Part shown: piece by piece, positions 6,321-22,875 of the stretch
Position numbering within the stretch: the stretch's first letter is position 1
How the letters are laid out: every line of letters begins with the position of its first letter
Assembly: GCA_026985095.1 (NCBI GenBank)
Contig: JALSQW010000046.1
Location: 1 to 64,000 of the forward strand
Source: Acidimicrobiia bacterium
Lineage (GTDB): Bacteria > Actinomycetota > Acidimicrobiia > Spongiisociales > UBA5794
DNA: 64,000 nt
Reading direction: 5' to 3'
Position numbers and translations under genes: made by a program
The notes under the pieces: model-generated
Seen by the model: only the letters and a program-made list of their open reading frames with translations
What the model was told of the DNA's origin: nothing
Database searches by the model: none

Positions 6321-7624
6321 CCGACGGAGACATGACGCCCCACCGCGAGCTCCTGGCCAGACACCGGCAGGTCCTGCCGTCCTGGTTGGCGTTGTACTAC
6401 GACGAGCCCATCGCCCTCGTCGACGGCGAAGGGCGACGGGTCGTCGATGCCGAAGGGAACGAGTACCTCGATTTCTTCGGCGGCATCCTCACGACGATGA
6501 CCGGCTACAAGGTCCCCGAGGTCGTCGCCGCCATCCAACGCCAGGCTGCCGAGATGCTGCACACCTCGACGCTGTACCTCATCGAACCGCAGATCGAGCT
6601 GGCGGAGAAGCTGATCGAACGGTCCCCGATCCCCGATGCCAAGGTGTTCTTCGTCAACTCGGGCTCCGAGGCCAACGAGGCGGCCTTGCTCCTGGCGACC
6701 GCCTATCGCCGATCCAACCAGATCCTGGCCGTGCGCAACAGCTACCACGGTCGCACCTTCAGCGCCGTCGCCATCACGGGGAACCGGGCATGGTCACCGA
6801 CCAGCCTCAGTCCGGTCGATGTCACCTACATCCACGGCGGCTACAAGTACCGGAGCCCCTTCGGTCATCTCCCCGACGACGAGTTCACGGCGGCATGCGT
6901 CGCCGACCTGCGGGACATGCTGGCGATCGCCACGGCGGGGGACGTCGCCGCGATGATCGCCGAGCCGATCCAGGGTGTGGGCGGGTTCGTCACGCCCCCC
7001 GACGGCTTCTTCGGCGCCATGAAGGAGGTCCTCGACGAGCACGGCATCCTGTTCATCTCCGACGAGGTCCAGACCGGCTGGGGACGGACCGGCGAGCACT
7101 TCTGGGGCATCGACGCCCACGGGATGGTCCCCGACATCATCACCTTCGCCAAAGGGCTCGGCAACGGCCTGGCCATCGGCGGGGTGATCGCCCGGGCCGA
7201 GATCATGGACTGCCTCACGGCCAACTCGATCTCCACCTTCGGTGGCAACCCGCTGGCCACGGCCGGCGCGCTGGCCAACCTCGAGTACCTCATCGAACAC
7301 GACCTGCAGACCAATGCCCTCAAGGTCGGCCAGCATCTTCGCTCCCGCCTCGACGATCTCGCCGACCGGTCGGAGATCATCGGCGAGGTTCGCGGCAAGG
7401 GTCTCATGCTCGGCGTTGAACTGGTTCGACCATCGAGCACCGAACCGAATCCTTCCGCCGCCAAGACGATCATGGAGGAGGCGAAGGCAGGGGGGCTGCT
7501 CATCGGCAAGGGCGGCCTGTACGGCAACGTCCTCAGGATCGCCCCTCCGTTGACGCTCACCGAGGCCGAGGCGGACGAAGGCTACGAGATCATCGAGCGG
7601 GCGGTGACCAGCGCCGAGGTGTAG
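6317..7624 (+). CDS. Class III PLP-dependent aminotransferase (beta-alanine or AGXT2-like)
   Basis: From GTG 6317 the protein has 435 residues; ATG 6332 is an alternative. It carries the class III fold with VNSGSEANEAALLLA for phosphate binding, D249 (ISDEVQTGWGRTG), and the Schiff-base lysine K279 in TFAKGLGNG. It resembles alanine-glyoxylate/beta-alanine transaminases (AGXT2 type). After the carbamoyl hydrolase it would take the amino group from beta-alanine or 3-aminoisobutyrate, giving a semialdehyde. The GTGA overlap couples it to the hydrolase. No semialdehyde dehydrogenase gene follows, so that step must be encoded elsewhere. Confidence 0.88.
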   Translation: MTDGDMTPHRELLARHRQVLPSWLALYYDEPIALVDGEGRRVVDAEGNEYLDFFGGILTTMTGYKVPEVVAAIQRQAAEMLHTSTLYLIEPQIELAEKLIERSPIPDAKVFFVNSGSEANEAALLLATAYRRSNQILAVRNSYHGRTFSAVAITGNRAWSPTSLSPVDVTYIHGGYKYRSPFGHLPDDEFTAACVADLRDMLAIATAGDVAAMIAEPIQGVGGFVTPPDGFFGAMKEVLDEHGILFISDEVQTGWGRTGEHFWGIDAHGMVPDIITFAKGLGNGLAIGGVIARAEIMDCLTANSISTFGGNPLATAGALANLEYLIEHDLQTNALKVGQHLRSRLDDLADRSEIIGEVRGKGLMLGVELVRPSSTEPNPSAAKTIMEEAKAGGLLIGKGGLYGNVLRIAPPLTLTEAEADEGYEIIERAVTSAEV

Positions 7625-7661
7625 GACGCCGTCGATCACGACCGAGAAGGGAGAAGCGACC

Positions 7662-9110
7662 ATGCGTACGCTGATCAAGGGCGGGACCGTCGTCACCGCG
7701 ACGGAGAAGATGCGAGCCGACGTGCTCATCGAAGACGACAAGGTCGTCGCCATCTACGATCCCGGCGGTCGAGGGTGGGAGAAGACGCTGACCGAGGCCG
7801 TCGTCGGGGTGCTCGCCGACAAGGTCATCGATGCGACGGGCAAGCTCGTCATGCCCGGCGGGATCGATCCCCACACCCACATGGAGCTTCCCTTCGGCGG
7901 AACGTTCGCCGCCGACACCTTCGAGACCGGCACCCGGGCCGCGGCGTGGGGTGGGACGACGACGATCATCGATTTCGCCGTCCAGACGAAGGGCCAGGGG
8001 TTGCTGGAGGGACTCGAGGCGTGGATGGACAAGGCCGACGGCAAATGCGCCATCGACTACGGCTTCCATCTCATCGTCGGCGACGTCAACGACCAGTCGC
8101 TCAAGGAGATGGACATCGCCGTCGGTGAAGGGGTGACGTCGTTCAAGATGTTCATGGCCTATCCGGGGGTGTTCTACTCCACCGACGGCGAGATCCTGCG
8201 GGCCATGCAGAAGGCGCTCGAGAACGGCTCGACGATCATGATGCACGCCGAGAACGGGATCGCCATCGACGTGCTGGTCCAGCAGGCTCTCGAACGGGGC
8301 GAGACCGACCCGATCTACCACGGGTTGACCCGGCCCCCGGCCCTGGAGGGCGAAGCGACCCACCGGGCCATCGTCCTGGCCGACGTCGCCGGCGGCACCC
8401 CGTTGTACATCGTTCACCTGTCGGCGGCAGAGGCGCTCGAAGAGGTCACGATCGCCCGTGACGAGGGGAAGAACGTGTTCGCCGAGACGTGCCCGCAGTA
8501 CCTGTTCTGCGATCTGGACGACCTCGGCAACGGCTTCGAGGGCGCCAAGTTCGTGTGCTCCCCCCCGATGCGGGACCGAGCCGAGCAGCATCAGGAAGCC
8601 CTCTGGCGCGGCTTGGCGACCAACGACCTGCAGGCGGTGTCGACGGATCACTGCCCGTTCTGCATGGGGGACCATCCGGTCTTCGGGACCCAGAAGCAGC
8701 TCGGGCAGGGGGACTTCTCGAAGATCCCGAACGGCATGCCCGGCGTCGAGTACCGGATGGAGCTCATCTACCACGGCGGCGTCAACGCCGGGCGGATCGG
8801 TCTCAACCGCTTCGTCGAGATCACCTCGACGACCGCGGCCAAGATGTTCGGCCTCTACCCGCAGAAGGGCACGATCGCCATCGGGTCCGATGCCGACATC
8901 GTCGTGTTCGACCCCGACGCCACCCACACGATCTCGGCCAAGACCCATCACATGTGGGTGGACTACTCCCCGTACGAAGGGATGGAGATCACCGGCAAGG
9001 TGGAGACGGTCCTGTCGCGGGGCAAGACGATCATCGAGAACGGCGAGTACCTCGGCGAGCCCGGCGACGGCCGGTATCTGCGGAGGGCGAGCAACCAGTA
9101 CCTGATCTGA
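7662..9110 (+). CDS. hydA: Dihydropyrimidinase / D-hydantoinase
   Basis: The 482-residue cyclic amidohydrolase shows the complete binuclear metal site: H71 and H73 in GGIDPHTHMELPFGG, carboxylated lysine K162 in SFKMFMAYPG, H195 (MMHAENG), H252 (VHLSAAEAL) and D329 (STDHCPF). It opens the dihydropyrimidine or hydantoin ring to an N-carbamoyl amino acid, feeding the hydrolase at 5478. A GGGAGAAG ribosome site precedes the ATG. Gene order (third rather than first) does not follow the pathway order, which is common. Allantoinase is less likely because of the FKMFMAYPG form. Confidence 0.93.
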   Translation: MRTLIKGGTVVTATEKMRADVLIEDDKVVAIYDPGGRGWEKTLTEAVVGVLADKVIDATGKLVMPGGIDPHTHMELPFGGTFAADTFETGTRAAAWGGTTTIIDFAVQTKGQGLLEGLEAWMDKADGKCAIDYGFHLIVGDVNDQSLKEMDIAVGEGVTSFKMFMAYPGVFYSTDGEILRAMQKALENGSTIMMHAENGIAIDVLVQQALERGETDPIYHGLTRPPALEGEATHRAIVLADVAGGTPLYIVHLSAAEALEEVTIARDEGKNVFAETCPQYLFCDLDDLGNGFEGAKFVCSPPMRDRAEQHQEALWRGLATNDLQAVSTDHCPFCMGDHPVFGTQKQLGQGDFSKIPNGMPGVEYRMELIYHGGVNAGRIGLNRFVEITSTTAAKMFGLYPQKGTIAIGSDADIVVFDPDATHTISAKTHHMWVDYSPYEGMEITGKVETVLSRGKTIIENGEYLGEPGDGRYLRRASNQYLI

Positions 9111-9151
9111 TCGAGACCCGATCGAACAGCCGGCGATCACAGGAGGGCCAT

Positions 9152-10156
9152 GTGCAGTTCGGAGCCGTGTTCCAGACCGACCCGCCGGCACAGCGGGTCA
9201 TCGACCTGGCCAAGGAGGCCGAAGTCCTCGGCTTCAGCCACGTATGGACGTTCGATTCCCACGTGCTGTGGGAGGAACCGTTCGTCATCTACTCGCGGAT
9301 CCTCGCCGAGACCGACCGTCTCATCGTGGGTCCGCTCGTGACGAACCCCGGGACGCGGGACTGGACGGTGCTGGCGTCGCTGTTCGCAACGCTCGACGAG
9401 ATGTCGGGCGGGCGCACGATCTGCGGCATGGGGAGAGGAGACTCCGCGCTGCGCTATATCGGCCGCAAGCCGACGCGCCTGGCGACCATGTCCGAGGCGA
9501 TGAAGGTCATCAAGGGTCTCGTCGCCGGCGAGGAGGTCGACTACAAGGGCACGCCCGTCCGCATCCCCTGGCTCGACGGGGGCTGGGACCTGCCGATGTG
9601 GGTGGCCGGCTACGGGCCGAAGGCGCTCGACCTCATCGGACGGGAAGCCGACGGGTTCGTCCTCCAGCTCGCCGATCCCAAGATCCTCGAATGGACGGTC
9701 GAGACGGTCAAGACCGCGGCGTCCGATGCCGGTCGCGACCCCGACGAGCTGACCATCGCCGTAGTGGCCCCGGCGTACGTCGGCGACGACCTGGCCGCGC
9801 AATGCGAGGAGCTGCGCTGGTTCGGTGGCATGGTGGGCAACCACGTCGCCGACCTCGCCGCCCGCTACGGCGACGAGGGCACGATCCCCAGCGATCTGCT
9901 GGAGTACATCGCCGCCCGGGAGTCCTACGACTACTCCCATCACGGGAAGTCCGGCAACCCGACGACCGATTTCGTCACCGACGAGATCGTGGAACGCTTC
10001 TGCATCCTCGGGCCGGTCGACCATCACGTCGACAAGATCCGCCAGCTCGAACAGCTCGGAGCGGACCACGTGTCGCTCTACCTGATGCACGATCACATCG
10101 AAGGCACGATGGAGGCATACGGCCAGACCGTCATCCCGGCGATCAACGGTTCGTGA
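9152..10156 (+). CDS. Luciferase-like (LLM) F420-dependent oxidoreductase
   Basis: The start is GTG 9152, five bases after a perfect AGGAGG; the ATG at 9150 is out of frame. The 334-residue protein has the TIM-barrel LLM pattern (GFSHVWTFDSH near the start, LVTNPGTRDWTVLASLFATLDEMSGGRTICGMGRGDSA). It resembles the Mer-like subgroup often annotated as F420-dependent and found beside hydantoinase genes. CofG and CofH later in the window show that F420 can be made here. No dihydropyrimidine dehydrogenase is in this cluster, so this protein could carry a redox step on the ring; that is a hypothesis. Confidence 0.82.
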   Translation: MQFGAVFQTDPPAQRVIDLAKEAEVLGFSHVWTFDSHVLWEEPFVIYSRILAETDRLIVGPLVTNPGTRDWTVLASLFATLDEMSGGRTICGMGRGDSALRYIGRKPTRLATMSEAMKVIKGLVAGEEVDYKGTPVRIPWLDGGWDLPMWVAGYGPKALDLIGREADGFVLQLADPKILEWTVETVKTAASDAGRDPDELTIAVVAPAYVGDDLAAQCEELRWFGGMVGNHVADLAARYGDEGTIPSDLLEYIAARESYDYSHHGKSGNPTTDFVTDEIVERFCILGPVDHHVDKIRQLEQLGADHVSLYLMHDHIEGTMEAYGQTVIPAINGS

Positions 10157-10205
10157 CGCCGCAGTCGGGTAACCTCGTCGGACAACGATCGGAGGTCGAG
10201 GTCCG

Positions 10206-11648
10206 ATGAAGGTCATCGTCGTCGGCGTCGGCGGAACCACCCGGGAGCTCCTGCGCCGTCTCGGCGAGATGTGGGAATGCGTCCTGGTGGACACCGATCC
10301 GGATGCCATCGCCCAGGTCACCGAGATCGCCAGGGTCGAGTCCTTCGTCGGAGACGGCTCTTCCGCCCTCGTGCTGGAGCGGGCCGGTCTCGACCAGGCG
10401 GATGCTCTCGTCGCGGTGACCGACGACGACGACGTCAATCTGGAAGCGTGCCGGATCGCCCAGGAGGCGGGTGTGCTTCGCGTCATCGGCGTCGCCGCGG
10501 AGCCCGAGCGGGTCGAGGACTATCGGGATCTCGGAGTGATCGCGGTGTCGCCGGAGTCGCTCGCGGCGCGTCACATCGAAGTGCAGCTCGAACCGCGGCG
10601 GGTGGTCTCGACCGCGTTCGCCGACGGGAAGGCCGAGGCGATCGAGTTCTCGATCTCCCCCGATTCGACGGTGAAGGGCAAGCAGCTCAAGGAGCTGCAT
10701 TCGGAGACCTGGATCGTGGCGGCGATCCTGCGCCAGGGCGAGTTGATCGTTCCTCACGGGGACACCCGTCTCCAGGCCGGCGACCGTGTCACGGTCGTCG
10801 GCGCGGCGAACGACTTCGCCACGATCGTACGGACCTTCACGGCCGGCGAGGCCCGGTTCCCGCTCGGGTACGGACGCAAGGTGGCGGTGACCCTCGACTC
10901 GGAGGCCGATCTGGCCGGCCCTGTGGCCGAGGCGCTCAGCGTCGTTCGGAACTCACCGGCCGAAGAGTTGCTGGTCGTCCATCGGGATCCCGCCAGCGAA
11001 CGCGACTCGGACCGGGCAATGGCCGTCGACACCCTGCTGGAACGACTCAGGAGTCAGGCCGATGGTGTGGAGGTCGACCTCGCGCCGGAGCGACCTCCGC
11101 TCGACCAGGGGCTGATCCGACGAGTGACCACAGAGAGCGTGGGGCTCGTGGTCGTCCCCGCACCCGCCGGTGGGCAGCTGTCGGGACGACTGCGGACGGC
11201 CAGGGTCCTCAACCGCCTCGCTCCGCTCGGCAAGCCGGTGCTGCTGAGCAGGGCCACCCACCCGTACGCGTCGATCGTGGTGCCGGCTCGACGCACGCCT
11301 GCGGGAGAAGCGGCCGGGCGCGCCGGGATCGACCTGGCGAGGAGCTTCGGTGCGACCCTCGTCGGCGTGGCGGTCGTGGCGCCGACGTTCGTCGGGGAGG
11401 AGGATCTCGATGACGCCCGGAAAGCCGCCGCCTGGCTTCGCGAGGAAGCCGCGGTGCAGGGGGTTCAGGTACGACGACGGGTCCGACGCGGCAACCCCGT
11501 CCGCGTCCTGGAGGAGGCGGCGAACGAAGCGAGCCTGCTCGTCCTGGCGATGCCGCAGGTTCCGCTCGGTCCGTGGCGGCCGGGCATCACCGGGCATCTG
11601 GCGCAGCGGGCACGGGTCTCGGTCCTGCTGGTGCCGGAGCTCCGCTGA
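10206..11648 (+). CDS. RCK (TrkA-type) protein fused to two USP-like domains
   Basis: The 480-residue protein begins with a Rossmann fold (VIVVGVGGTTREL, acid at VDTD) that matches RCK-N (about 1-120). A RCK-C domain follows (about 130-215, with LQAGDRVTVVGA). The remaining 265 residues look like two universal-stress-protein domains (about 222-350 and 352-480), the second ending in SVLLVPE. RCK domains sense NAD(H) or nucleotides and gate cation transporters. The gene touches the CPA2 antiporter gene (TGATG), so it probably regulates it. A ribosome site GGAGGTCGAGG precedes ATG 10206. The combined USP architecture is less common than RCK alone. Confidence 0.78.
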   Translation: MKVIVVGVGGTTRELLRRLGEMWECVLVDTDPDAIAQVTEIARVESFVGDGSSALVLERAGLDQADALVAVTDDDDVNLEACRIAQEAGVLRVIGVAAEPERVEDYRDLGVIAVSPESLAARHIEVQLEPRRVVSTAFADGKAEAIEFSISPDSTVKGKQLKELHSETWIVAAILRQGELIVPHGDTRLQAGDRVTVVGAANDFATIVRTFTAGEARFPLGYGRKVAVTLDSEADLAGPVAEALSVVRNSPAEELLVVHRDPASERDSDRAMAVDTLLERLRSQADGVEVDLAPERPPLDQGLIRRVTTESVGLVVVPAPAGGQLSGRLRTARVLNRLAPLGKPVLLSRATHPYASIVVPARRTPAGEAAGRAGIDLARSFGATLVGVAVVAPTFVGEEDLDDARKAAAWLREEAAVQGVQVRRRVRRGNPVRVLEEAANEASLLVLAMPQVPLGPWRPGITGHLAQRARVSVLLVPELR

Positions 11649-12886
11649 TGCCGCTCCTGGCGGCCGAGACGGGGATCGTCCCGGGTGCACCGACGTTCGT
11701 GGCCATCGGGCTGGGTGCGTTCCTCCTGCCGATCGTCGCTCGCCGGATCGGGGTTCCGTCGGTCGTCCTGGAGATCCTCTACGGCGTCCTCATCGGTCCG
11801 TCGGTGTTCGGGCTGATCGCCGCCAGCTCGACCGAGGAGGGGTTCGTGCTGGTCCTCGGAGAACTCGGATTGCTGCTCCTGATGTTCCTCGCCGGGTTCG
11901 AGATCGATTTCGCCCGTCTCGAACGGGAAGGGCCGATCCCGATCCTGTGGGGCCTGGTCTACTTCGTGCTGGTCCTCGCAGCGGCCTGGATCGGCTTCGG
12001 GTTCATGGGGATGGAGACCTTCGAGCAGCGTCTCTTCCTGACGTTGCTCGTCTCCGCGGCATCCCTGGGGATCATCATCCCCGCCCTTCGCGCCACCGGC
12101 CGGATCAACACCCGGCTCGGTCAGGTCGCGATCGTCGCCGGCGTCATCGCCGAGTTCCTGTCCGCCACGGGCCTGGTCGGCTTCGGGATCGTGGTGGAGA
12201 ACGGGGTCGGCATCCGGCTCCTGGGCATCCCCGTGTTCGCCGTGGTCGTCCTGGTGACCCTGGCGACGATGCGGAGGGTGGCCTGGTGGTACCCGGAGTA
12301 CGCGGAGCGCATGTTCGCCAGCCACGATCCCGACGAGATGGGGATCCGTGCCAGCCTCGCCCTCCTCTTGGTGCTCGTCGGGATCTCCCTGGGCCTCGGC
12401 ATCGATCCGATCCTGGGCGCGTTCTTCGCCGGAGCGCTCTTCACCTACGTGTTCCGCAACAGCGGCGACCTCGAGACCAGGTTGTCCGGGTTCGCCTACG
12501 GGTTCTTCATCCCGATCTTCTTCATCAGCGTCGGGATCCGGTTCCCCCTCGACGTGCTCGAGGACCCGTCGGTGCTGGCCGGTTCCGCCGCCCTCATCGG
12601 CGTGGCCATCGTGGCCAAGCTGCTGCCCGCCCCCGTGTTCTTGTGGCGTGGACTGACGATGCGGGAAGCCTTCGCCGCCGGGGTGCTGCTCGCCGGACAA
12701 CTGTCGGTCGTGATCGCCCTCGCCGAGTTCGGGGTCCAGGTCGGGGTCATCGACGACCGCCTCGCGGCCGGTGCCATCCTCCTGGTCGGCGTGACGGCGA
12801 TCGCGTCGCCGATCGTCTTCCGGATGGTGATGCCGGGGATCGCCGACGTCGATGAGGGAGCCTCCGCCGACGTCGAGTTGCGGTGA
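11648..12886 (+). CDS. CPA2-family monovalent cation:proton antiporter (KefB-like)
   Basis: The 412-residue integral membrane protein has about twelve hydrophobic segments and the CPA2 pattern: GVLIGPSVFGLI near residue 50, GELGLLLLMFLAGFEID near 75, and IGAFFAGALF/IPIFFISVGI later. Such carriers exchange K+ or Na+ for protons. It lacks a C-terminal RCK domain; the separate RCK/USP gene directly upstream, sharing one base, supplies it. The 3' end overlaps the start of the FlgM-like frame by four bases. Substrate ion cannot be told from sequence. Confidence 0.87.
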   Translation: MPLLAAETGIVPGAPTFVAIGLGAFLLPIVARRIGVPSVVLEILYGVLIGPSVFGLIAASSTEEGFVLVLGELGLLLLMFLAGFEIDFARLEREGPIPILWGLVYFVLVLAAAWIGFGFMGMETFEQRLFLTLLVSAASLGIIIPALRATGRINTRLGQVAIVAGVIAEFLSATGLVGFGIVVENGVGIRLLGIPVFAVVVLVTLATMRRVAWWYPEYAERMFASHDPDEMGIRASLALLLVLVGISLGLGIDPILGAFFAGALFTYVFRNSGDLETRLSGFAYGFFIPIFFISVGIRFPLDVLEDPSVLAGSAALIGVAIVAKLLPAPVFLWRGLTMREAFAAGVLLAGQLSVVIALAEFGVQVGVIDDRLAAGAILLVGVTAIASPIVFRMVMPGIADVDEGASADVELR

Positions 12887-14455: not shown

Positions 14456-17400
14456 CCCAACGGCGCCCGGCATCGCAGAAGGCGAGGAAGTCGCACGTCC
14501 GGCAGGCCTCCGAGGGGGATGGTTCGTGATGGAGGGCGGCGGCGCGTTCGGCCAGGGATGCGATCGTCTCGTGGGTCTCGTCGAGGAGGTGCCGGTCGAG
14601 GTCGACGGACTCCTCCTCGGGTTCGGGGCCCCCGAAGTAGGCGAAGGTGAGGGTGAGCGCGTCGGGTCGGGTGACCGACACCGCGCCGAGGTCGACGGCG
14701 ACGGCGTACGCCTGGAGCTGCACCCACCGTTCGGGACGGTTCGCTCTCCGGCCCGACTTGTAGTCGACGATCTCCCAATGGGAGTCGCCTCGATCGTAGA
14801 TGGCGTCGATGCGACCTCGGAGACGGACCGGCCCCACCGGCACATCGATCGAGACCTCGGTGAACAGCGGTGGTGAGGCGGCGAACCGCGACCGGGTGAA
14901 CGTGTCGTAGGGGTCCGTCGTCGGTGGATGCTCCTGCCCGGGCGCAGCCACCGCGTCGTAGGCATCCGGATCGAGGTCCTCGAACGGCAGCTTCCCGAGG
15001 TTGTGGAGCTCGACCCGGCGATGGAACTCGATGCCGCGCCGGAACCACGGGCTGGGACGTCGTGGAAGGTGATCGATCTCGGCGAACGCGAACCGGCGTG
15101 GACACGATGCCAAGGTCATCAATCCGGTGACCGAGACGTCGGTGGGGCGCGCGTGGGCAGGGGGAGCCACCGAGGGGAGCCGCGCGAGCGCGTCGCGTAG
15201 CTGGCGTCCCATCTCGTCGACCACGGCCACCTCCATGTCGTCGGGGATCGGGAGCGTGCCTCCGGCCGCGCGGTCGTGCAAGGCGGCGCGCCAACCCGCT
15301 GCGAAGAGCGGATCGGGCGGGGCGCCCGTCCCCGCGTCGACGGCGTCGAGATCGGGAGCCTCACCGGGGTCGGGGGTCTCGACGAGCGCTTCGGTCGCCG
15401 GATGTTGGGCGATGATCTCGAACAGGGCGGAAGGCGAGTTGGGGCGGCGGCGGCCCGGCTCCCACCAGGCTCCGGAGGCGATGAGGACATGGCGGGCGCG
15501 CGTGGTGGCGACGTACGCGGTACGCCACTCCTGGGAGAGGTGGTGCTCGCGCAACAGTCGTGAACGATGCGACGGGTCGGCGGCCGAGGCGAGGTCGGGG
15601 AGGTGCTCGGCGTCGAGTCGGAGCTCATAGGGCAAGAAGCGCGCCCGAGCGGTGGGATCGTCGTAGATGGCGGCTCGCGACGGGAACGTGTCCGTGGCGA
15701 GCGACGGCAACACGACCACGTCCCATTCCAGTCCCTTGGCGCGGTGGACGGTGGATAGGGACACGGCGTCCTCGTTCGAGACGGTGGCGGTGTCGAGCTC
15801 GGCGTCGTCGGCGCCTTCGGCCAGCACGTCGAGGTAGGCCAGGAAGCCGTCGAGGGATGGGCGTCCTTCGAGCGGGGACCAGCTCTCGGCAAGATCGAGG
15901 AAGCGATACAGGTCGAGTCTGGTCGACAACGCCTTGCCGGGTGCCATCGCGGCGATCTCCTTCCAGGCGTCCATGGTGTCGAGGACACGTCGGGAGAGCT
16001 CGACGAGGGTGAGGCTCTGGGCGGCGGCCAGGAGATCCCGGTACTCGTCACGGAAGGCGCGGAGACGGACTACGGCGTCGTCGTCGAGGCCGGTCACGTC
16101 GTCCAGGCGGTCGATCGCCTCCAACAGGGGCCAGCCCGGCGCGGCTTCGGTGTCGGTGGGGGAACGCCCCTGGGCGGCGATCCAGGCATGCAACGGCGCC
16201 AGATCCCCGAAGCCGAGCCGGTAGCGGCCGCCGAAGAGGATCCTGACCAGCGCCGCCGAGTCGTCGGGAGCCCGCAGGATGCGCAACCACGCATGGAGGT
16301 CGGCGACCTCGGGCACGTCGAGGAGACCTCCGAGGGACACGACCTCGACGGGGATGTCCTCGGCTTCCAGGGCGAGGCGGATGCCGTGCATCGTCTTGTT
16401 CTTCCGCACCAGGACGGCCATCGAACCCCACGGGGTACCGAGGTCGTGGTAGTGGATGAGGCGACGAGCGATCCAGGTGGCTTCGTCGTGCGAGGTCCGG
16501 AACCACCCGGTCTGGACGGTCCCGGGGCCTGCGTCGTCGCGGGGCCGCAGCGGGGGGACGGCGTCTGGGCTTCCGATCTTCCGCTTGACGCGTTCGGCGA
16601 TGTCGATGATGGCCCTGTCGGACCGACGGTTGAGCGTGAGCGGGAGGGTGGGGGCCGGTTCCCCGTCGCTGGTCGGGAAGTGCCGAGGGAACGACGCGAA
16701 GTTGCCGAGCGACGCCCCCCGCCATTCGTAGATCGTCTGGTCGGGATCTCCCACGGCGGTCACCGGGAAGCCCGGACCGAGGAGTGTCTGGAGGAGGCGG
16801 CGCTGCCCGGGGTCGGTGTCCTGGTACTCGTCGAGGAGCACCATCTCGTAGCGGTCGCGGATCCGAGCTGCGACCTGGGGATGCTCGGTGAGCAGGCGGT
16901 GGGCGAGCCGGATCAGGTCTCCGTGGTCGAGAACCCCGAGGCGGCGCTTGGCGGTCTCGTAGGCCCGGACGATGCCGACCAGATCGAGGCGCTGAGCCCA
17001 CACGTCGTCGCGTTCGTCGGGAGGTGGGGCGATGGCTTCGAGGTCGTCGGCGGTCGCCAGGTTGTCGGCGAGTTGCCGCAGGAGGGTCGCTGCCTCGGCG
17101 ATCCGAGAGGGGGGGTGGGTCAGGTCGATCGTGCGGCCCCCGGCGGTACGGAGGGCCTCGTCGAGGAGTTGGCGCTGATAGCCAGCGCCGATGACGGCCG
17201 CTGCGCGTTCGACGCCGACGAGGGCCCCGTGATCGAGGAGCAGCGAGTAGGCGAAGCCGTGGTAGGTCGTGACCATCACCTCTCTTCCGGTTGCCGTCAG
17301 CTCGGGGAGCTGTTCGCGCAGCCGGTCGGCGAGCTCCTCGGCGGCCTTGTTCGTGAAGGTGAGTCCGACCGCCCGTTCCGGAGCCAGCCCCTCGGCGATG

Positions 17401-17528: not shown

Positions 17529-20485
17529 GACGCGAACGCCTCCCGTCCTTCGGGTCGGGCGGGGCAGACCAGGGCGACCGCGCAGTGCCGGCAGGCAGGT
17601 CCGGGTGTGGGAGCCCAATCCTCTCTGAGGATCCCGTCGGTGACGGCGGTCATCCTCTCGGTGATCTCACCGAGCGCGGCCGGGTCGAAGTACCGGATGG
17701 CGGGGCCCCTCTCGAGCATCTTGAGGGGGTACCACAGTTCGGCACCCACGGGTTCGGCGAGATCGCTCAGTGCTGCGTCTCGGCGCGCGGCGAGCAGGTA
17801 GTACCCTAGCTGGAGCGAACGGGCGGCGTCGGCCCTGGGGAGCGGAGTCCTGGTGGTCTTGTAGTCGACGATGACGAGCCCATCGTCGCGACGCTCGATC
17901 CGGTCGGCCTTGCCGACCCATCGCACGCCTCGGTGCGGCTGCTCGAGGCGTCGTTCGACGTCCACGACGGCGCCCGAGCTCGGCCATCGCCCGTAGAGGT
18001 TCTCGAGCGCCCTGCGGCCGCGGTCGAGCCAGGCGGAGGCGAAGGGCTCACCGCCGAACCGATCGGGGTCGAAGCGAGCGTCGAGTTCGGCCACCGCCTC
18101 GGCGAGCGTTCCATGGGGTTCGCCGCGCTCGAGGGCGGCCCGTTCGACGGTTTCGAGCACGCCGTGGACGAGGGTGCCGAACTCCGCGTAGACGCTCTCG
18201 GAGCGGCCGATGCCGAGGCGTCGTTCGAGGGCGTACCGGCGTGGGCAGGTCTCGTAGAGCTCTCCTTGGGAGGGGGAGAGGGTGATGTCGGGCGGCAGGA
18301 TCCCCGTGTCGGGCCGACGTGGTCGTACCCCGGAGATCGAGCGCGGGTCGCCGAGGCCGAGGCGGGCTCCGTCGGCGAGCACATCGAGCGCGGCGAGGCG
18401 CCGCGCCGGTGGGACGGACGGGTCGGCGACCAGGCGCCTGAGGTAGCCGTCGAACTCGGTGACGGTCACCGGTCGCCGTCGTTCGGGTGCCGGCGCGGCG
18501 GCTTCGGCGACCGTGGCCGTGCCGGCGACGAGGGCCAGGAAGCGGCTGGGGATCCCGCGTCCCTCGTCGTATCCGGTCGACGTGGCGGTCCAGACCACCC
18601 GTCGAGCGGCGCGGGTCATGGCCGTGTACGCGAGGCGTCGTTCCTCCTGGAGACGGAACGCGAGGTACTCCGCGGTGTCGGCGGGAAGGTGCTCGGTGAG
18701 GTGACGGGCGCCTAGCAGCGAGTCCCGGGGACGGAGATCCGGGAACACGCCTTCCACCGCGTCGCAGACGAACACGACGTCGAAATGGAGGCCTTTCGAT
18801 TGATGGAGGGTGGTGACGACGAGACGGTCGGCTCCGGTCCGTCGGTACGACAGGAGGGGGGTGGCTTCGAACGCATCGTCTTCGGTGAGGTCGAGGTACC
18901 GGACGAGGGTCGCCTCTGGGTCTCGGTCGTTCCATCGGACGAGGACCTGCGCCAGCGAGCTCCATGCGGCTCGGGACTCGGTGCCGTCGGGGTCGGCGAC
19001 GATGCGGGCGATCTGAGGGAGGTCGGTCCACAGTTTCCAGAAGGCGCCGTGGGCGGGCAGGTCGGTCGCCCACGTGGCGTCTTCGATGAGGTCGGCGAGG
19101 GGTCCCCCTTCGGGGACGAACCGCCGGATGACGTCCGGCCATGATCTCCCCCGGCCCGCCTTCTCCCTGAGCAGATCGTGGAGGGTTCCCAAAGGGAGGC
19201 GGAACAGCGGCCCGAGGAGGATCCTCCGGACGGCCCGCTCGCGTTCGGCCGCATCCGTGTCGGTGGCGGCGATGACGCAGTCCAGCACGAACCGCACCGC
19301 CGGTTGGTCCGCCAGCCGGGAGTCCGGCCGCTCGTGAGGGATGCTTCGGCGTTCGAGCGCCCGAGACAGCTCGGGGAGGAAGCGACGCTTGCTCCTGACG
19401 AACACCGCCATCGACGAGTAGGGGAGCCCGAGCTCGAGATGGGCCCGTTGGATCTCGGCGGCGACCCACTCGGCTTCCTCGGTCTGCTGCTCGAAGCGGT
19501 ACGTCTCCACCGAGGCGACGCCGTCGGCGGGTACGACTGGCCCCGACGCTCCGGGGAGCTCGTGGGCAGCGACCCGTTCGGCGGCCGTCAGGATCGTTCG
19601 AGGGACACGGAACGATGTCGTCAGGACGTAGCGGCGCGCTCGGCGGTCGGGACCGGAGAACTCGTCGACGAAGCGGCCGACGTTGCGGAGGTCGGCGCCC
19701 CGGAAGCTGTAGATCGACTGGTACGGGTCCCCGGCGACGGCGACGTTGCCGTGGTGGGCGGCGACGGCTCTCAGGAGTGCGACCTGGGCTCTGGTGGTGT
19801 CCTGGTACTCGTCGACCAGGACGTGGGCGTACTGTCGGCCGACGGCAGCGCGGACGTCGGGATCGCCGAGGAGGGCGACGGCCTCGGTGAGGAGGGTGCC
19901 GTAGTCGATCCTCTCCGACGTCCGGAGGGTGGCGTCGTATCGGTCGATGAACTCCGGGACCCCGCGCCATTCGGGCCGGGCGATCCGTCGCAGGTCGTCG
20001 GGTCCGACGAGCTGCTCCCGGCATCGCAGCAGGAGGTCGGTCAGTTCTTCGGCGAAGGTGCGGCTCTCCAGGATGCCGCGGTACGCCGGGGACCAGGCTT
20101 CGGGGCGTTCTTCGGCCAGCATGCGGGCGACGAGGGCGATCTGTTCGGGTGCGCTGAGCAGACGTGGGGGCGCGACCCAACCGCGGCGTTCGGCGTGGAC
20201 CTCCATGAGGCGCATGGCGAACGAGTGGTACGTGGCGGTGGCGACGGCACGGACCGCTCCCGGGTAGGCCGTTCGGAGGCGACCCGCCAGGTCGGCCACG
20301 CTCCGGCGGGAGAAGCTGAGCATGAGCAGCCCGTCGTCGGGTCGTTCCTGCAGGATCCGGATGGCTCGCCGAACGAGGAACTCGGTCTTGCCGGTCCCCG
20401 GGCCGCCGACGATCAACTGGGGTCCGTCGAGATCCGCGACGGCGCCCTCCCAGTCGGCGGGATCGACGCGGATCTCGTCGGTCAC
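17525..20485 (-). CDS. adnA: AdnA-like UvrD-type helicase with C-terminal Fe-S nuclease domain
   Basis: The 986-residue partner of the downstream AdnB-like protein. It has Walker A GGPGTGKTEF near residue 31, the helicase motif VDEYQDTTRAQ, GDPYQSIYSFRGAD, TLHQSKGLHFD and AMTRAARRV. The nuclease domain carries VIVDYKTTRTPLPR and Fe-S cysteines in ETCPRRYALE and ACRHCAVALVC. The GTG start at 20485 is fixed by the GTGA overlap with the RecB-like gene; the open frame extends upstream but only in shadow of that gene. The pair should form a processive end-resecting motor and nuclease. Which subunit dominates translocation cannot be judged here. Confidence 0.82.
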   Translation of the reverse strand: MTDEIRVDPADWEGAVADLDGPQLIVGGPGTGKTEFLVRRAIRILQERPDDGLLMLSFSRRSVADLAGRLRTAYPGAVRAVATATYHSFAMRLMEVHAERRGWVAPPRLLSAPEQIALVARMLAEERPEAWSPAYRGILESRTFAEELTDLLLRCREQLVGPDDLRRIARPEWRGVPEFIDRYDATLRTSERIDYGTLLTEAVALLGDPDVRAAVGRQYAHVLVDEYQDTTRAQVALLRAVAAHHGNVAVAGDPYQSIYSFRGADLRNVGRFVDEFSGPDRRARRYVLTTSFRVPRTILTAAERVAAHELPGASGPVVPADGVASVETYRFEQQTEEAEWVAAEIQRAHLELGLPYSSMAVFVRSKRRFLPELSRALERRSIPHERPDSRLADQPAVRFVLDCVIAATDTDAAERERAVRRILLGPLFRLPLGTLHDLLREKAGRGRSWPDVIRRFVPEGGPLADLIEDATWATDLPAHGAFWKLWTDLPQIARIVADPDGTESRAAWSSLAQVLVRWNDRDPEATLVRYLDLTEDDAFEATPLLSYRRTGADRLVVTTLHQSKGLHFDVVFVCDAVEGVFPDLRPRDSLLGARHLTEHLPADTAEYLAFRLQEERRLAYTAMTRAARRVVWTATSTGYDEGRGIPSRFLALVAGTATVAEAAAPAPERRRPVTVTEFDGYLRRLVADPSVPPARRLAALDVLADGARLGLGDPRSISGVRPRRPDTGILPPDITLSPSQGELYETCPRRYALERRLGIGRSESVYAEFGTLVHGVLETVERAALERGEPHGTLAEAVAELDARFDPDRFGGEPFASAWLDRGRRALENLYGRWPSSGAVVDVERRLEQPHRGVRWVGKADRIERRDDGLVIVDYKTTRTPLPRADAARSLQLGYYLLAARRDAALSDLAEPVGAELWYPLKMLERGPAIRYFDPAALGEITERMTAVTDGILREDWAPTPGPACRHCAVALVCPARPEGREAFAS

Positions 20486-21336
20486 GCCGGCGAGCTGGAC
20501 CCCGCCTGTGCCGGTACCGGGGCGGTCGAGGCGTCGGACGGGGCCGCCGCGGTGTCGGTCGAGTCGGCGAAGGCGGGGCAGAGGTCCTTGAAGCTGCACC
20601 AGTCGCAGAGCGGTCCCGGTCGGGGAGGGAACGTCCGGTCCCGCATCGCCCGCTCGATGGCTCCCCACAGGGCACGGAGCTGTCGCTCCATGGCGTCGAG
20701 CTGGGCATCGGAGACGGGGATCTCGTAGACGGTCGGTCCGTTGAGATAGACCAGACGGAGCGCGTCGGGGGTTCGTCCGGTGCGGATGCGGATCAAGAGC
20801 GCGTAGATCTTGAGCGCGAAGAACGCGGACAGGGCGTAGCGTTCCGGAGGGGCCTTGCCGGTCTTGTAGTCGATGATGACCAACCCGTCGTCCGTGTCGT
20901 CGATGCGGTCCAGGATCCCTCGGATCTTCATGCCGCCGACCACCTCGAGCATGTCGAGCTCCCGGTCGAGGGGTTCGATCGCGGTGGGATCCTCGACCGA
21001 GAAGTAGTTCGCCAGCAGGGTCAGGCTCTCGGCGCCCCAGGCGCGTTCATCGTCGACGGAGTCGAACAGGTCGGGGAACTCGGTGGGTTTGAGCTCCATC
21101 CACGCGTCTCGGAAGAGGTCGTAGAGATGTTCGGGGGTCCGTTCCTCGGCGGGCAGGTCGAACAGCCGTTGGAGCGCCAGATGGGCCGTCGTGCCCCTCG
21201 CCTGGTACACCGTCGGCGGAGCTTCGAGGCGGTCGATGGCCTTGAACTTGAAGAGCTGCGGACACACCTTGAAATCGCTGGCGCGACTGGGCGAGAGGGT
21301 CTCGAGGGTCGGCGGGGAGCTCGTGAGATCGTCCAT
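20482..21336 (-). CDS. RecB-family PD-(D/E)XK nuclease with Fe-S cysteines
   Basis: The 284-residue stand-alone nuclease has the Cas4/RecB layout: SPSRASDFKVCPQLFKF with the first Fe-S cysteine near residue 26, DGLVIIDYKTGKAPPERYAL as the active site, and a C-terminal C-x2-C-x5-C (LCDWCSFKDLC). It leads an operon with the AdnA- and AdnB-like genes, each joined by four-base overlaps. Start choice: a TATGAT box (minus, 21344-21349) ends seven bases before ATG 21336, fitting leaderless transcription; ATGs at 21345 and 21348 would overlap the box. It may supply a single-strand nuclease to AdnAB or work alone. Confidence 0.82.
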   Translation of the reverse strand: MDDLTSSPPTLETLSPSRASDFKVCPQLFKFKAIDRLEAPPTVYQARGTTAHLALQRLFDLPAEERTPEHLYDLFRDAWMELKPTEFPDLFDSVDDERAWGAESLTLLANYFSVEDPTAIEPLDRELDMLEVVGGMKIRGILDRIDDTDDGLVIIDYKTGKAPPERYALSAFFALKIYALLIRIRTGRTPDALRLVYLNGPTVYEIPVSDAQLDAMERQLRALWGAIERAMRDRTFPPRPGPLCDWCSFKDLCPAFADSTDTAAAPSDASTAPVPAQAGSSSPA

Positions 21337-21343
21337 GGTGGGC

Positions 21344-21383
21344 ATCATACGGTCCTGGTGCGACAGGAACCACATCGATGTGA
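21344..21383 (-). promoter_or_regulatory. Promoter and palindromic operator of the recB-adnA-adnB operon
   Basis: On the minus strand a TATGAT -10 box occupies 21344-21349. A perfect 12-bp palindrome CACATCGATGTG at 21371-21382 sits over the expected -35 region. With one flanking base it reads TCACA-TCGA-TGTGG on the minus strand, resembling TCACA-CGCG-TGTGA at the smc promoter (36433-36446). A repressor or activator binding there would control end resection genes; its identity is unknown. Confidence 0.45.
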
Positions 21384-21390
21384 TTCGGGT

Positions 21391-21465
21391 CGCGAAATCT
21401 CGGTCGGAGGCGCGAAAAGCAAGTACCGATCCGACTTGACGCCGACCGACGCCCACCGATAGGTT
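21391..21465 (+). promoter_or_regulatory. Promoter of structured RNA A, with upstream CGCGAAA boxes
   Basis: Elements in order: CGCGAAA at 21391-21397, CGCGAAAAGCAA at 21411-21422 (20 bp from the first), then a 13-base gap, -35 TTGACG at 21436-21441, an 18-base spacer, and -10 TAGGTT at 21460-21465. All distances are identical in the promoter of RNA B at 21854-21928, although the intervening bases differ. Conserved spacing with unconserved spacers points to real protein sites, with the two boxes on the same DNA face. Confidence 0.7.
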
Positions 21466-21471
21466 GCCCTC

Positions 21472-21798
21472 CGCTGATCGGACGAGGGCTTCGGCCCGGA
21501 CCCGAGACGCATCGCAGCGAGGGCCTTCGGGTCCGAGCAGCGGTCGGTCCTGAGGGACGGCCCAGGTTCCGAGGGCCGGTCCGCCGCCTCGGCGGCGGGA
21601 CGGTTCCGAGGGACTCCGGTCCATTCAGGGCCAGGCGCCAGAAGCGCCGCCTGGCGGGGAACCGTCGGGCGACGTGGAGACGCCAACCCCGGCCGATCGG
21701 GTGCGAGCCCGTGAGGTCGGACCGAAGCGGCTCACGCCGCTTCGATGAGAACCCCGAGAGGGTGAGGCTCCGGCCGAGCTCCCTCGGGGTTTCTCGCG
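21472..21798 (+). ncRNA. Putative structured non-coding RNA A (unknown family)
   Basis: No credible protein frame exists here. Starting seven bases after the -10 box, the transcript would be about 325 bases. Visible helices: 21497-21505 with 21527-21535 (nine perfect pairs, CGGACCCGA); 21559-21563 with 21573-21577; 21581-21588 with 21591-21598; a nine-pair long-range helix 21599-21607 with 21658-21666 (GACGGTTCC) enclosing 21631-21637 with 21648-21654; 21698-21701 with 21708-21711 inside 21693-21696 with 21717-21720; 21723-21730 with 21737-21744; then the terminator hairpin. It matches no tmRNA, RNase P, SRP or 6S signature I know. Ends are inferred. Confidence 0.6.
21749..21798 (+). terminator. 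Terminator-like hairpin ending RNA A
   Basis: AACCCCGAG (21750-21758) pairs with CTCGGGGTT (21783-21791), with further pairing inside, followed by TTTC. The 48 bases 21751-21798 match 22163-22210 at 44 positions, by far the strongest similarity between the two RNA units. The U tract is short, as often in high-GC actinobacteria, so efficiency is uncertain; the element might instead be a conserved functional domain. Confidence 0.55.
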
Positions 21799-21853
21799 TT
21801 CGGCGGGCGGCCGGAAGCCCGATGCGTCCACGGCAGCAGGCCCGAGCGCACGT

Positions 21854-21928
21854 CGCGAAAACCCGAAGAAGGCCGCGAAAAGCAACCAGCGTTCCAGCTT
21901 GCAAGATGCTGCAGCCCGCGCGTACATT
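21854..21928 (+). promoter_or_regulatory. Promoter of structured RNA B, with upstream CGCGAAA boxes
   Basis: CGCGAAA at 21854-21860, CGCGAAAAGCAA at 21874-21885, a 13-base gap, -35 TTGCAA at 21899-21904, an 18-base spacer and -10 TACATT at 21923-21928. It reproduces the geometry of promoter A base for base. It lies about 55 bases after the RNA A terminator, so RNA B has its own start. Confidence 0.7.
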
Positions 21929-21934
21929 GTGGTC

Positions 21935-22211
21935 GTCGTCGATGAGGGCAACCGAAACGGCGGCGACGGCCCGAGAGGGTCGTTCCTCGGAAGCCCGAGA
22001 GGGTGGAAGAGGAGATCCGAGACCCGCAAGGGTCGAGGAACACCGACCGGTCCGCACCCCGAGAGGGGAGCGGCGGTCCCGAGAGGGGCCGGCCCGGGAA
22101 GGCCTTCGGGTCGACCCGGATCCGGAAGGGAGCCGGCGCCCGCAAGGACGCCGGATGGGAACACCCCGAGAGGGCGAGGTTTCGGCCGAGCTCCCTCGGG
22201 GTTTCCCGCGC
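21935..22211 (+). ncRNA. Putative structured non-coding RNA B, rich in GNRA-capped hairpins
   Basis: About 275 bases, built mostly of short stems closed by GNRA tetraloops: 21967-21982 (six pairs, GAGA loop); 21994-22003 (CCC-GAGA-GGG) within a TCCTC/GAGGA helix at 21984-21988 and 22009-22013; 22021-22034 (GACCC-GCAA-GGGTC); 22052-22073 (eight pairs with one A-A mismatch, GAGA loop); 22075-22090 (six pairs, GAGA loop); 22133-22154 (CCGGCG and CC pairs, GCAA loop). It ends in a terminator hairpin nearly identical to that of RNA A. Six hairpins using the same loop class in this span is far beyond chance. Family unknown to me. Confidence 0.62.
22163..22210 (+). terminator. Terminator-like hairpin ending RNA B
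   Basis: ACCCCGAG (22163-22170) pairs with CTCGGGGT (22195-22202), followed by TTCC. It is the second copy of the 48-base element at 21751-21798 (44 of 48 identical). It lies 30 bases before the start of the PH-domain gene and should insulate that gene from RNA B. Confidence 0.55.
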
Positions 22212-22227
22212 TCGGAGCCCGGTGCAC

Positions 22228-22239: not shown

Positions 22240-22875
22240 ATGAGTTGGCCCGAGAACGCCCTGACCGAGGACGAGAAGATCGTCTCCCAATTCCGGCCGC
22301 ACTGGAAGCTGCTGGCGATCCCGATCGTGTGGTTCCTTCTCATCGCCGTTGGCGTGTTCGCCGTCTTCCGTTGGGTACCGGGAGGGGCCGTGATCGATCT
22401 CGTCCTCGTCCTCGTGCTGGCGGCGGCGTTCCTGTGGCTGGTGGTCAAACCGGTGATCGACTGGTACTTCACCCGCTATGTGCTCACCACCGAACGACTG
22501 ATCACCCGCAAGGGCCTCATCTCCCGACACGGCGTCGAGATCCCCCTGGAGAACATCACCAACGTCAACTTCTCGCAGACGATCTTCGAACGGCTCCTCG
22601 GGGCCGGGGACCTGCTCGTCGAATCCGCCGGGGAGACGGGTCACTCGGCGTTCTTCGACATCCCACACCCGGACCGGTTCCAGGCGGTCCTGTACAAGGT
22701 CCGGGAACAGCGGACGCTCGAGCTCAAAGGGCTCGCTCCATCCCCCGACGGGGGTGCCGAGTCCACCGTCGACCCCGAGGACCGGCTCCGCCGGCTGACT
22801 CGCCTCCACGACGAAGGGCTCATCACCGATGAGGAGTACGAACGCAAGCGGCGAGCGCTGCTCGACGACATCTGA
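22240..22875 (+). CDS. Membrane protein with bacterial PH domain and C-terminal SHOCT segment
   Basis: The 211-residue protein has two membrane segments (about 24-44 and 49-68), then a bPH2-type domain with YVLTTERLITRKGLISRHGVEIPLENITNVNFSQTIFERLLG, the pattern of DUF304 proteins. The last 35 residues (PEDRLRRLTRLHDEGLITDEEYERKRRALL) are a SHOCT module, a short oligomerisation helix pair. Family function is unclear; related proteins sit in the membrane and bind partners through the PH fold. Start chosen from the leaderless box; longer in-frame starts would overlap RNA B. Confidence 0.85.
   Translation: MSWPENALTEDEKIVSQFRPHWKLLAIPIVWFLLIAVGVFAVFRWVPGGAVIDLVLVLVLAAAFLWLVVKPVIDWYFTRYVLTTERLITRKGLISRHGVEIPLENITNVNFSQTIFERLLGAGDLLVESAGETGHSAFFDIPHPDRFQAVLYKVREQRTLELKGLAPSPDGGAESTVDPEDRLRRLTRLHDEGLITDEEYERKRRALLDDI

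Follow-up and report, generated by a model that had tools for sequence, protein, structure and literature searches.

Two units of identical layout in an 895-bp intergenic region

The window, a 64,000-nucleotide stretch of DNA from an Acidimicrobiia bacterium, contains an 895-bp gap between a PD-(D/E)XK nuclease gene (recB/Cas4-like; 20485..21345, − strand; PF12705, E = 8.7e-36) and a bacterial PH-domain gene (bPH_2 + SHOCT; 22240..22875, + strand; PF03703, E = 1.1e-18), which raises the question of what the gap encodes. The two flanking genes serve as synteny markers and lie outside the system described here. An earlier note had proposed that the gap holds no credible protein and two tandem, structured RNAs; this observation was confirmed in a stronger form than first claimed, and its interpretation was partly supported. 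The absence of a credible protein is consistent with the lengths of the orthologs, about 100–850 nt, and with the divergence of their bodies.

The gap contained two units, A and B, with the same order of parts, as had been described. Each comprises two CGCGAAA boxes offset by 20 bp, an interval of 18 bp, a TTG −35 element, a spacer of 18 bp (the correct length in the earlier description), a TAnnnT −10 element, a 5′-terminal tetraloop hairpin, a hairpin-rich body, and a near-invariant 3′ hairpin of about 50–60 nt. All features of both units are on the + strand. In unit A, the boxes CGCGAAA-N13-CGCGAAA (21391..21417; 21391–21397 and 21411–21417) precede the core promoter TTGACG(21436)-N18-TAGGTT(21460) (21436..21465), with a predicted start at about 21472. 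RNA A (21472..21801, about 330 nt) has a body of tetraloop hairpins. Its 5′-terminal hairpin (21476..21507), with a UUCG loop at 21490–21493, was assigned from arm pairing and loop position, and its conserved 3′-terminal hairpin (21746..21801), which covaries, scored 75 bits (E = 3.6e-16) with a covariance model of which this sequence is a part. In unit B, the boxes CGCGAAA-N13-CGCGAAA (21854..21880; 21854–21860 and 21874–21880) precede the core promoter TTGCAA(21899)-N18-TACATT(21923) (21899..21928), with a predicted start at about 21935. GNRA hairpins predominate in RNA B (21935..22213, about 280 nt), whose 5′-terminal hairpin (21934..21965; GCAA loop at 21948–21951) was assigned in the same way, and whose conserved 3′-terminal hairpin (22158..22213) scored 63.6 bits (E = 4.0e-13) with the model, of which it is also a part. 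The arrangement of the boxes was repeated in relatives, and both RNAs had orthologs.

The 60-nt terminal block, corresponding to the near-identical terminator-like hairpin of the earlier description, was 87% identical between A and B, and the 50-nt promoter block was 70% identical. RNA A and RNA B folded far better than dinucleotide shuffles, with z values of −5.1 and −5.4, respectively; none of 100 shuffles for A and none of 200 for B equaled them, in agreement with structured RNAs. A simple sigma-70 and terminator scanner found no promoter or terminator. Because the −10 elements are weak and the U-tract is just TTT, the evidence from the single sequence is thin, and since the scanner found nothing, the case for the units rests on comparison between genomes. 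It is this comparative evidence that makes the predicted promoter and terminator of A and B convincing.

Search for known RNA families

Rfam 15 (4227 models) gave no match at or above the gathering threshold in the 64-kb window, and matches at E values up to 10 were noise alone. The 6S RNA covariance model (RF00013) did not match in the window. Housekeeping RNAs were rejected as identities for A and B: the RNase P and tmRNA models did not match at the locus, and the true copies were located elsewhere in the genome, on contigs C56 and C18, respectively. The earlier statement that the units belong to no recognized family was supported. A literature search on Acidimicrobiia ncRNAs or the CGCGAAA motif turned up nothing relevant. 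In a different part of the window, ARAGORN called a 95-nt tRNA-Asp (14655–14749) inside an adnA-like gene, which is probably a false positive.

Distribution and genomic context

Of 149 relatives searched at the DNA level, 103 had matches, nearly all via the terminal hairpin, which was frequently present in two or three direct copies per locus. With an iterated profile, the hairpin was present in 40 of 40 fetched loci, and a covariance model of the hairpin detected it in most sampled genomes of the order; most genomes compared were MAGs. Scanning 84,980 species genomes for an exact pattern yielded at least 80 loci, nearly all labeled Acidimicrobiia or Actinobacteria. Weak covariance-model matches outside the order (families f9, f18, and f23 and other members of the phylum) were rejected as chance or ordinary terminators, the loci that were read having neither boxes nor synteny. 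The RNA family appears to occur throughout one order of Acidimicrobiia and, as far as tested, to be limited to it. Of the proposed new actinobacterial RNA class, the novelty stood, as no known family matches, but the range, as far as tested, is narrower than the name suggests.

The PD-(D/E)XK gene adjoined the RNA locus in 38 of the 40 loci, and the PH-domain gene was found in 31. In the window, about 27 nt separate the end of RNA B from the PH start codon, and the terminal hairpin can be drawn as two competing folds; both features would suit a cis-acting role, as leader or attenuator, on the gene that follows (for B, the PH-domain gene), in which termination at the 3′ hairpin would be regulated. 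However, the RNAs lay anywhere from tens of nucleotides to kilobases from the PH gene. In 9 of the 40 loci that gene was not found, in one (L066) it was inverted relative to the RNAs, and unit A is followed by unrelated genes. With distance, orientation, and downstream gene all varying, no fixed position before one gene was seen, and we rejected a cis-acting leader as highly improbable.

The spacing between hairpin copies extended from about 280 nt to 5.5 kb. In L058, L059, and L070, about 5.5 kb separated the copies, and the interval in L058 consisted of ordinary protein genes. The RNA units were inverted relative to their neighbors in L066 and convergent in L069. Because of the flipped units in L066, the convergent units in L069, and the genes between copies, A and B are best viewed as independent units of transcription that occupy a syntenic position. 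The L058 interval (7400–12600), from one genus, held several protein genes between A and B: PAP2-like and kinase-like genes, both assigned by eye, and genes for membrane proteins.

A conserved promoter with a double box

The double box was located upstream of 76 of the 79 hairpin copies in the 40 loci and the window. Among 75 distinct promoters, the distance from the second box to TTG was exactly 18 nt in 70, a single value that is informative because the search tolerance was 16–19 nt; a TAnnnT within the range of 16–19 nt beyond the −35 element was present in 67, its distance from the hexamer being 17 or 18 nt, and the gap between the boxes was 13 in 57 and 14 in 18. A reversed control pattern of the double box had no occurrences in the 26 genomes first tested. 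With centers near −57 and −77, the boxes are separated by two turns of the helix and lie on one face of it.

Selection on RNA structure

For the 3′ hairpin, covariation was counted in 86 distinct sequences on a structure derived from the same sequences and alignments: 92% of cells were paired, 12 of 20 pairs had double changes, and double-change cells numbered 105 versus 43 in shuffles, with slid-structure controls far lower. The core, CCCCGAG/CUCGGGG, was nearly invariant. Homologs with compensatory changes, which the earlier note had proposed to look for in relatives, were thus found. A GNRA or UNCG hairpin was present at the 5′ end of 68 of 76 units, its loop mostly 90–95 nt past the start of box 1 (99 in window RNA A), and it also covaried, with pairing at arm offsets 1–11 exceeding every shuffle.

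Within 75 bodies (20.7 kb), GNRA and UNCG hairpins numbered 212 and 151, versus 18.6 and 5.4 in shuffles, respectively, and other tetraloop hairpins numbered 386 versus 330. Flanking sequence of 60 kb contained 36 GNRA and 23 UNCG hairpins. The commonest body tetraloops were UUCG (141), GCAA (69), GAAA (54), and GAGA (44). Among the window, G001, and G016, GNRA loops interchanged GAGA, GAAA, GCAA, and GCGA yet remained GNRA, and one entire 25-nt hairpin was missing in G016. Compensatory changes were not found between the window and G001, a pair that is too similar. A single MAFFT alignment of all B RNAs was too divergent, recovering the terminal and one middle hairpin, and subfamily alignments were used instead. 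The folds of subfamilies A5 and A4, derived from the same alignments, had double changes in 19 of 48 and 23 of 87 pairs, respectively, above all 500 shuffles in each case.

As DNA, the hairpins are inverted repeats too, and in some genomes they form direct-repeat copies with cargo genes between them, which would suit DNA elements or repeats (terminators, REP-like hairpins, or recombination sites) rather than RNA genes. However, the promoter is fixed at one end and the loop position is set from it, the selection on GNRA/UNCG loop class acts on RNA, each genome has essentially one RNA locus, and the exact-match hairpin pattern was absent from 2.9 million viral contigs. On the fixed promoter, the RNA loop-class selection, and the single locus per genome, a repeat or mobile element was rejected, and we regard it as very unlikely. 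RNA genes being the preferred reading, A and B appear to have the marks of structured, trans-encoded ncRNA genes: a promoter of their own, defined ends, and a structure that covaries across species.

Some subfamilies retained invariant internal loops such as GGGGGCCCGCUUUCCC, which stands out as a candidate site of specific binding. The short A RNAs of family f2 (first copies in L035, L041, L046, L048, L060, and L064) had the invariant GGGGGCCCGCUUUCCC hairpin loop in common.

Two lineages of RNA

Orthologs of RNA A were 96% (G001) and 67% (G016) identical over the body, and those of RNA B were 96% (G001) and about 80–84% (G016) identical. The best body matches across genomes were mostly A to A and B to B, and a body matched another of its own genome solely where tandem duplicates were present (L053, L054). 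Because the bodies match their own type in other genomes, A and B are old, separate RNAs. The suggestion that they are diverged paralogous RNAs stood insofar as they are paralog-like units with different bodies; they are, however, not recent duplicates but two orthologous lineages. A common promoter type, terminator type, and locus keep A and B together.

A regulatory site shared with replication genes

The double box had just a few occurrences per genome. Beyond the 40 hairpin loci, about 61 sites were read, drawn from among the matches listed and not a random sample, and about 5 of them were further RNA loci (L118, L219, L220, L239, and probably L222). About 56 sites in the matches listed remained, of which 44 preceded dnaA (18), nrdJ (20), dnaB (4), or ftsK (2). 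Representative DnaA, NrdJ, DnaB, and FtsK proteins were confirmed with Pfam and NCBIfam; nrdJ encodes the B12-dependent ribonucleotide reductase. The genome of the window itself had the double box before dnaA (L101) and nrdJ (L201). The paired boxes first noticed in the gap thus proved to be a shared regulatory site. The family, its anatomy, covariation, and promoter, and the shared regulon all emerged from comparing sequences between genomes.

The 18-nt distance to TTG was retained at many nrdJ sites but mostly not at dnaA sites; since a TTG at that distance is mostly missing there, the mode of action of the box at dnaA may differ. In AT-rich genomes of about 1 Mb from another lineage of the class (L285–L296), the double box preceded dnaA at 12 of 12 sites read, one of these dnaA genes being confirmed by Pfam, and the association of box and dnaA therefore reaches beyond the order. 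It seems that the RNAs either were recruited into this regulon or originated in it.

The box CGCGAAA (21391, 21411, 21854, and 21874 in the window) coincides with one variant of CRCGAAA, the G1/S box of yeast, a curious likeness in a replication regulon and surely a coincidence.

Proposed function of the RNA pair

We lean toward reading A and B as structured ncRNAs that belong to a new family, are independent of each other and probably stable, act in trans within a DNA-replication regulon, and probably bind protein. From the comparisons we infer transcription, activation through the box, stability, and protein binding. The double box would be the binding site of a putative regulator with dnaA, nrdJ, dnaB, and ftsK as its other targets, and because the box is common to these genes, the output of A and B would be coupled to the initiation of replication and the supply of dNTPs, and through these to growth or the cell cycle. 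Activation from an upstream site would suit boxes centered near −57 and −77 on one helix face; the putative regulator could instead repress. The 5′-terminal hairpin and the strong 3′ hairpin would shield the RNA from exonucleases, aiding the build-up of a large pool. A and B would most likely act as protein-binding scaffolds or decoys, a role reached by exclusion: base-pairing to a fixed target fits poorly because loop class and the two end hairpins stay constant, whereas the stems and the number of hairpins vary.

That the RNAs are replication- or cell-cycle-timed regulators that base-pair with mRNAs, like CcnA or EcpR1 in alphaproteobacteria, would agree with the double box common to A, B, dnaA, nrdJ, dnaB, and ftsK. 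sRNA precedents in cell-cycle control have been reported (PMC8959179, PMC4414408), and the invariant loops specific to subfamilies leave room for a seed. However, body sequence and length drift strongly while the hairpin class stays, and no unpaired seed was seen across the family; we consider base-pairing regulators unlikely. CcnA and EcpR1 resemble A and B in being ncRNAs wired to replication or cell-cycle genes and differ in acting by base-pairing, with unrelated sequence, phylum, and regulators.

RNA polymerase-binding RNAs, functional analogs of 6S, Ms1, or CoRP that would tune transcription with growth, were also considered. 6S was not found in 21 genomes of the order, in a search whose positive controls matched in just 5 of 14, and Actinobacteria replaced 6S by Ms1 and, in Corynebacterium, by the unrelated CoRP, each a structured RNA encoded at a conserved locus (PMC9130861, PMC11077062). 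The size range is similar (200–500 nt), and A and B share with Ms1 and 6S a structured RNA of 200–300 nt at a conserved chromosomal locus in Actinobacteria, and with CoRP a long structured actinobacterial RNA of narrow taxonomic range. However, A and B are arrays of short hairpins, whereas Ms1 and 6S form one long hairpin with an open bubble, and no Rfam 6S match was obtained. Ms1 has a conserved HAD-IB hydrolase neighbor (PMC9130861) and CoRP is a single 516-nt RNA between tRNA genes (PMC11077062), unlike A and B, which are flanked by PD-(D/E)XK and bPH_2 genes. Two paralogous lineages in tandem under a replication-regulon promoter are unreported for Ms1 and CoRP, and paired units are unreported for CoRP. 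An RNA polymerase-binding role for A and B is thus improbable in our estimate.

The arrays also resemble CsrB/RsmZ sponges in having many short hairpins with a conserved loop class and free hairpin number, but their loops are UUCG and GNRA rather than GGA-bearing. Like OLE, ROOL, and GOLLD, they are large structured RNAs of unclear function; unlike these, they have a small 5′/3′ frame with a variable hairpin body, and no Rfam match was obtained.

Within the preferred reading of protein-binding, trans-acting RNAs, we tentatively raise the possibility that the RNA pair is a core output of the replication regulon, timed by growth or replication, whose GNRA/UUCG arrays would target the machinery of replication, segregation, or transcription, a kind of RNA undescribed in bacteria. 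The results add an RNA family that spans the order, covaries strongly, and has no known relatives, and the predicted DNA-replication regulon offers a handle on replication control in mostly uncultured Actinobacteria. They also raise the testable question of why genes for copying the chromosome and two structured RNAs use one switch.

Further double-box sites

Four sites (L107:5429–6274, L223:2146–2940, L234, and L238) preceded a family of proteins of about 280 aa, for which Pfam gave no match. These candidates may represent a new protein of replication or the cell cycle, or may be the regulator.

In the six genomes of genus g47 (L305–L334), 5–10 dispersed double boxes per genome had the form CGCGAAA..CTA..CGCGAAA, and the terminal hairpin of the ncRNAs was not found. 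Most of these boxes were followed by a conserved GGGCCCACCCCCGCCACCACC stretch, and some preceded apparent acyl-CoA dehydrogenase or enoyl-CoA hydratase genes. The g47 element looks like a different regulon or element with a similar box; because its boxes sit in this different, dispersed element, the double box does not always mark a replication target.

In three genomes (L116, L221, and L240), the double box preceded similar SAF/RcpC-CpaB-like (Flp pilus) genes, the assignment by Pfam being from L240.
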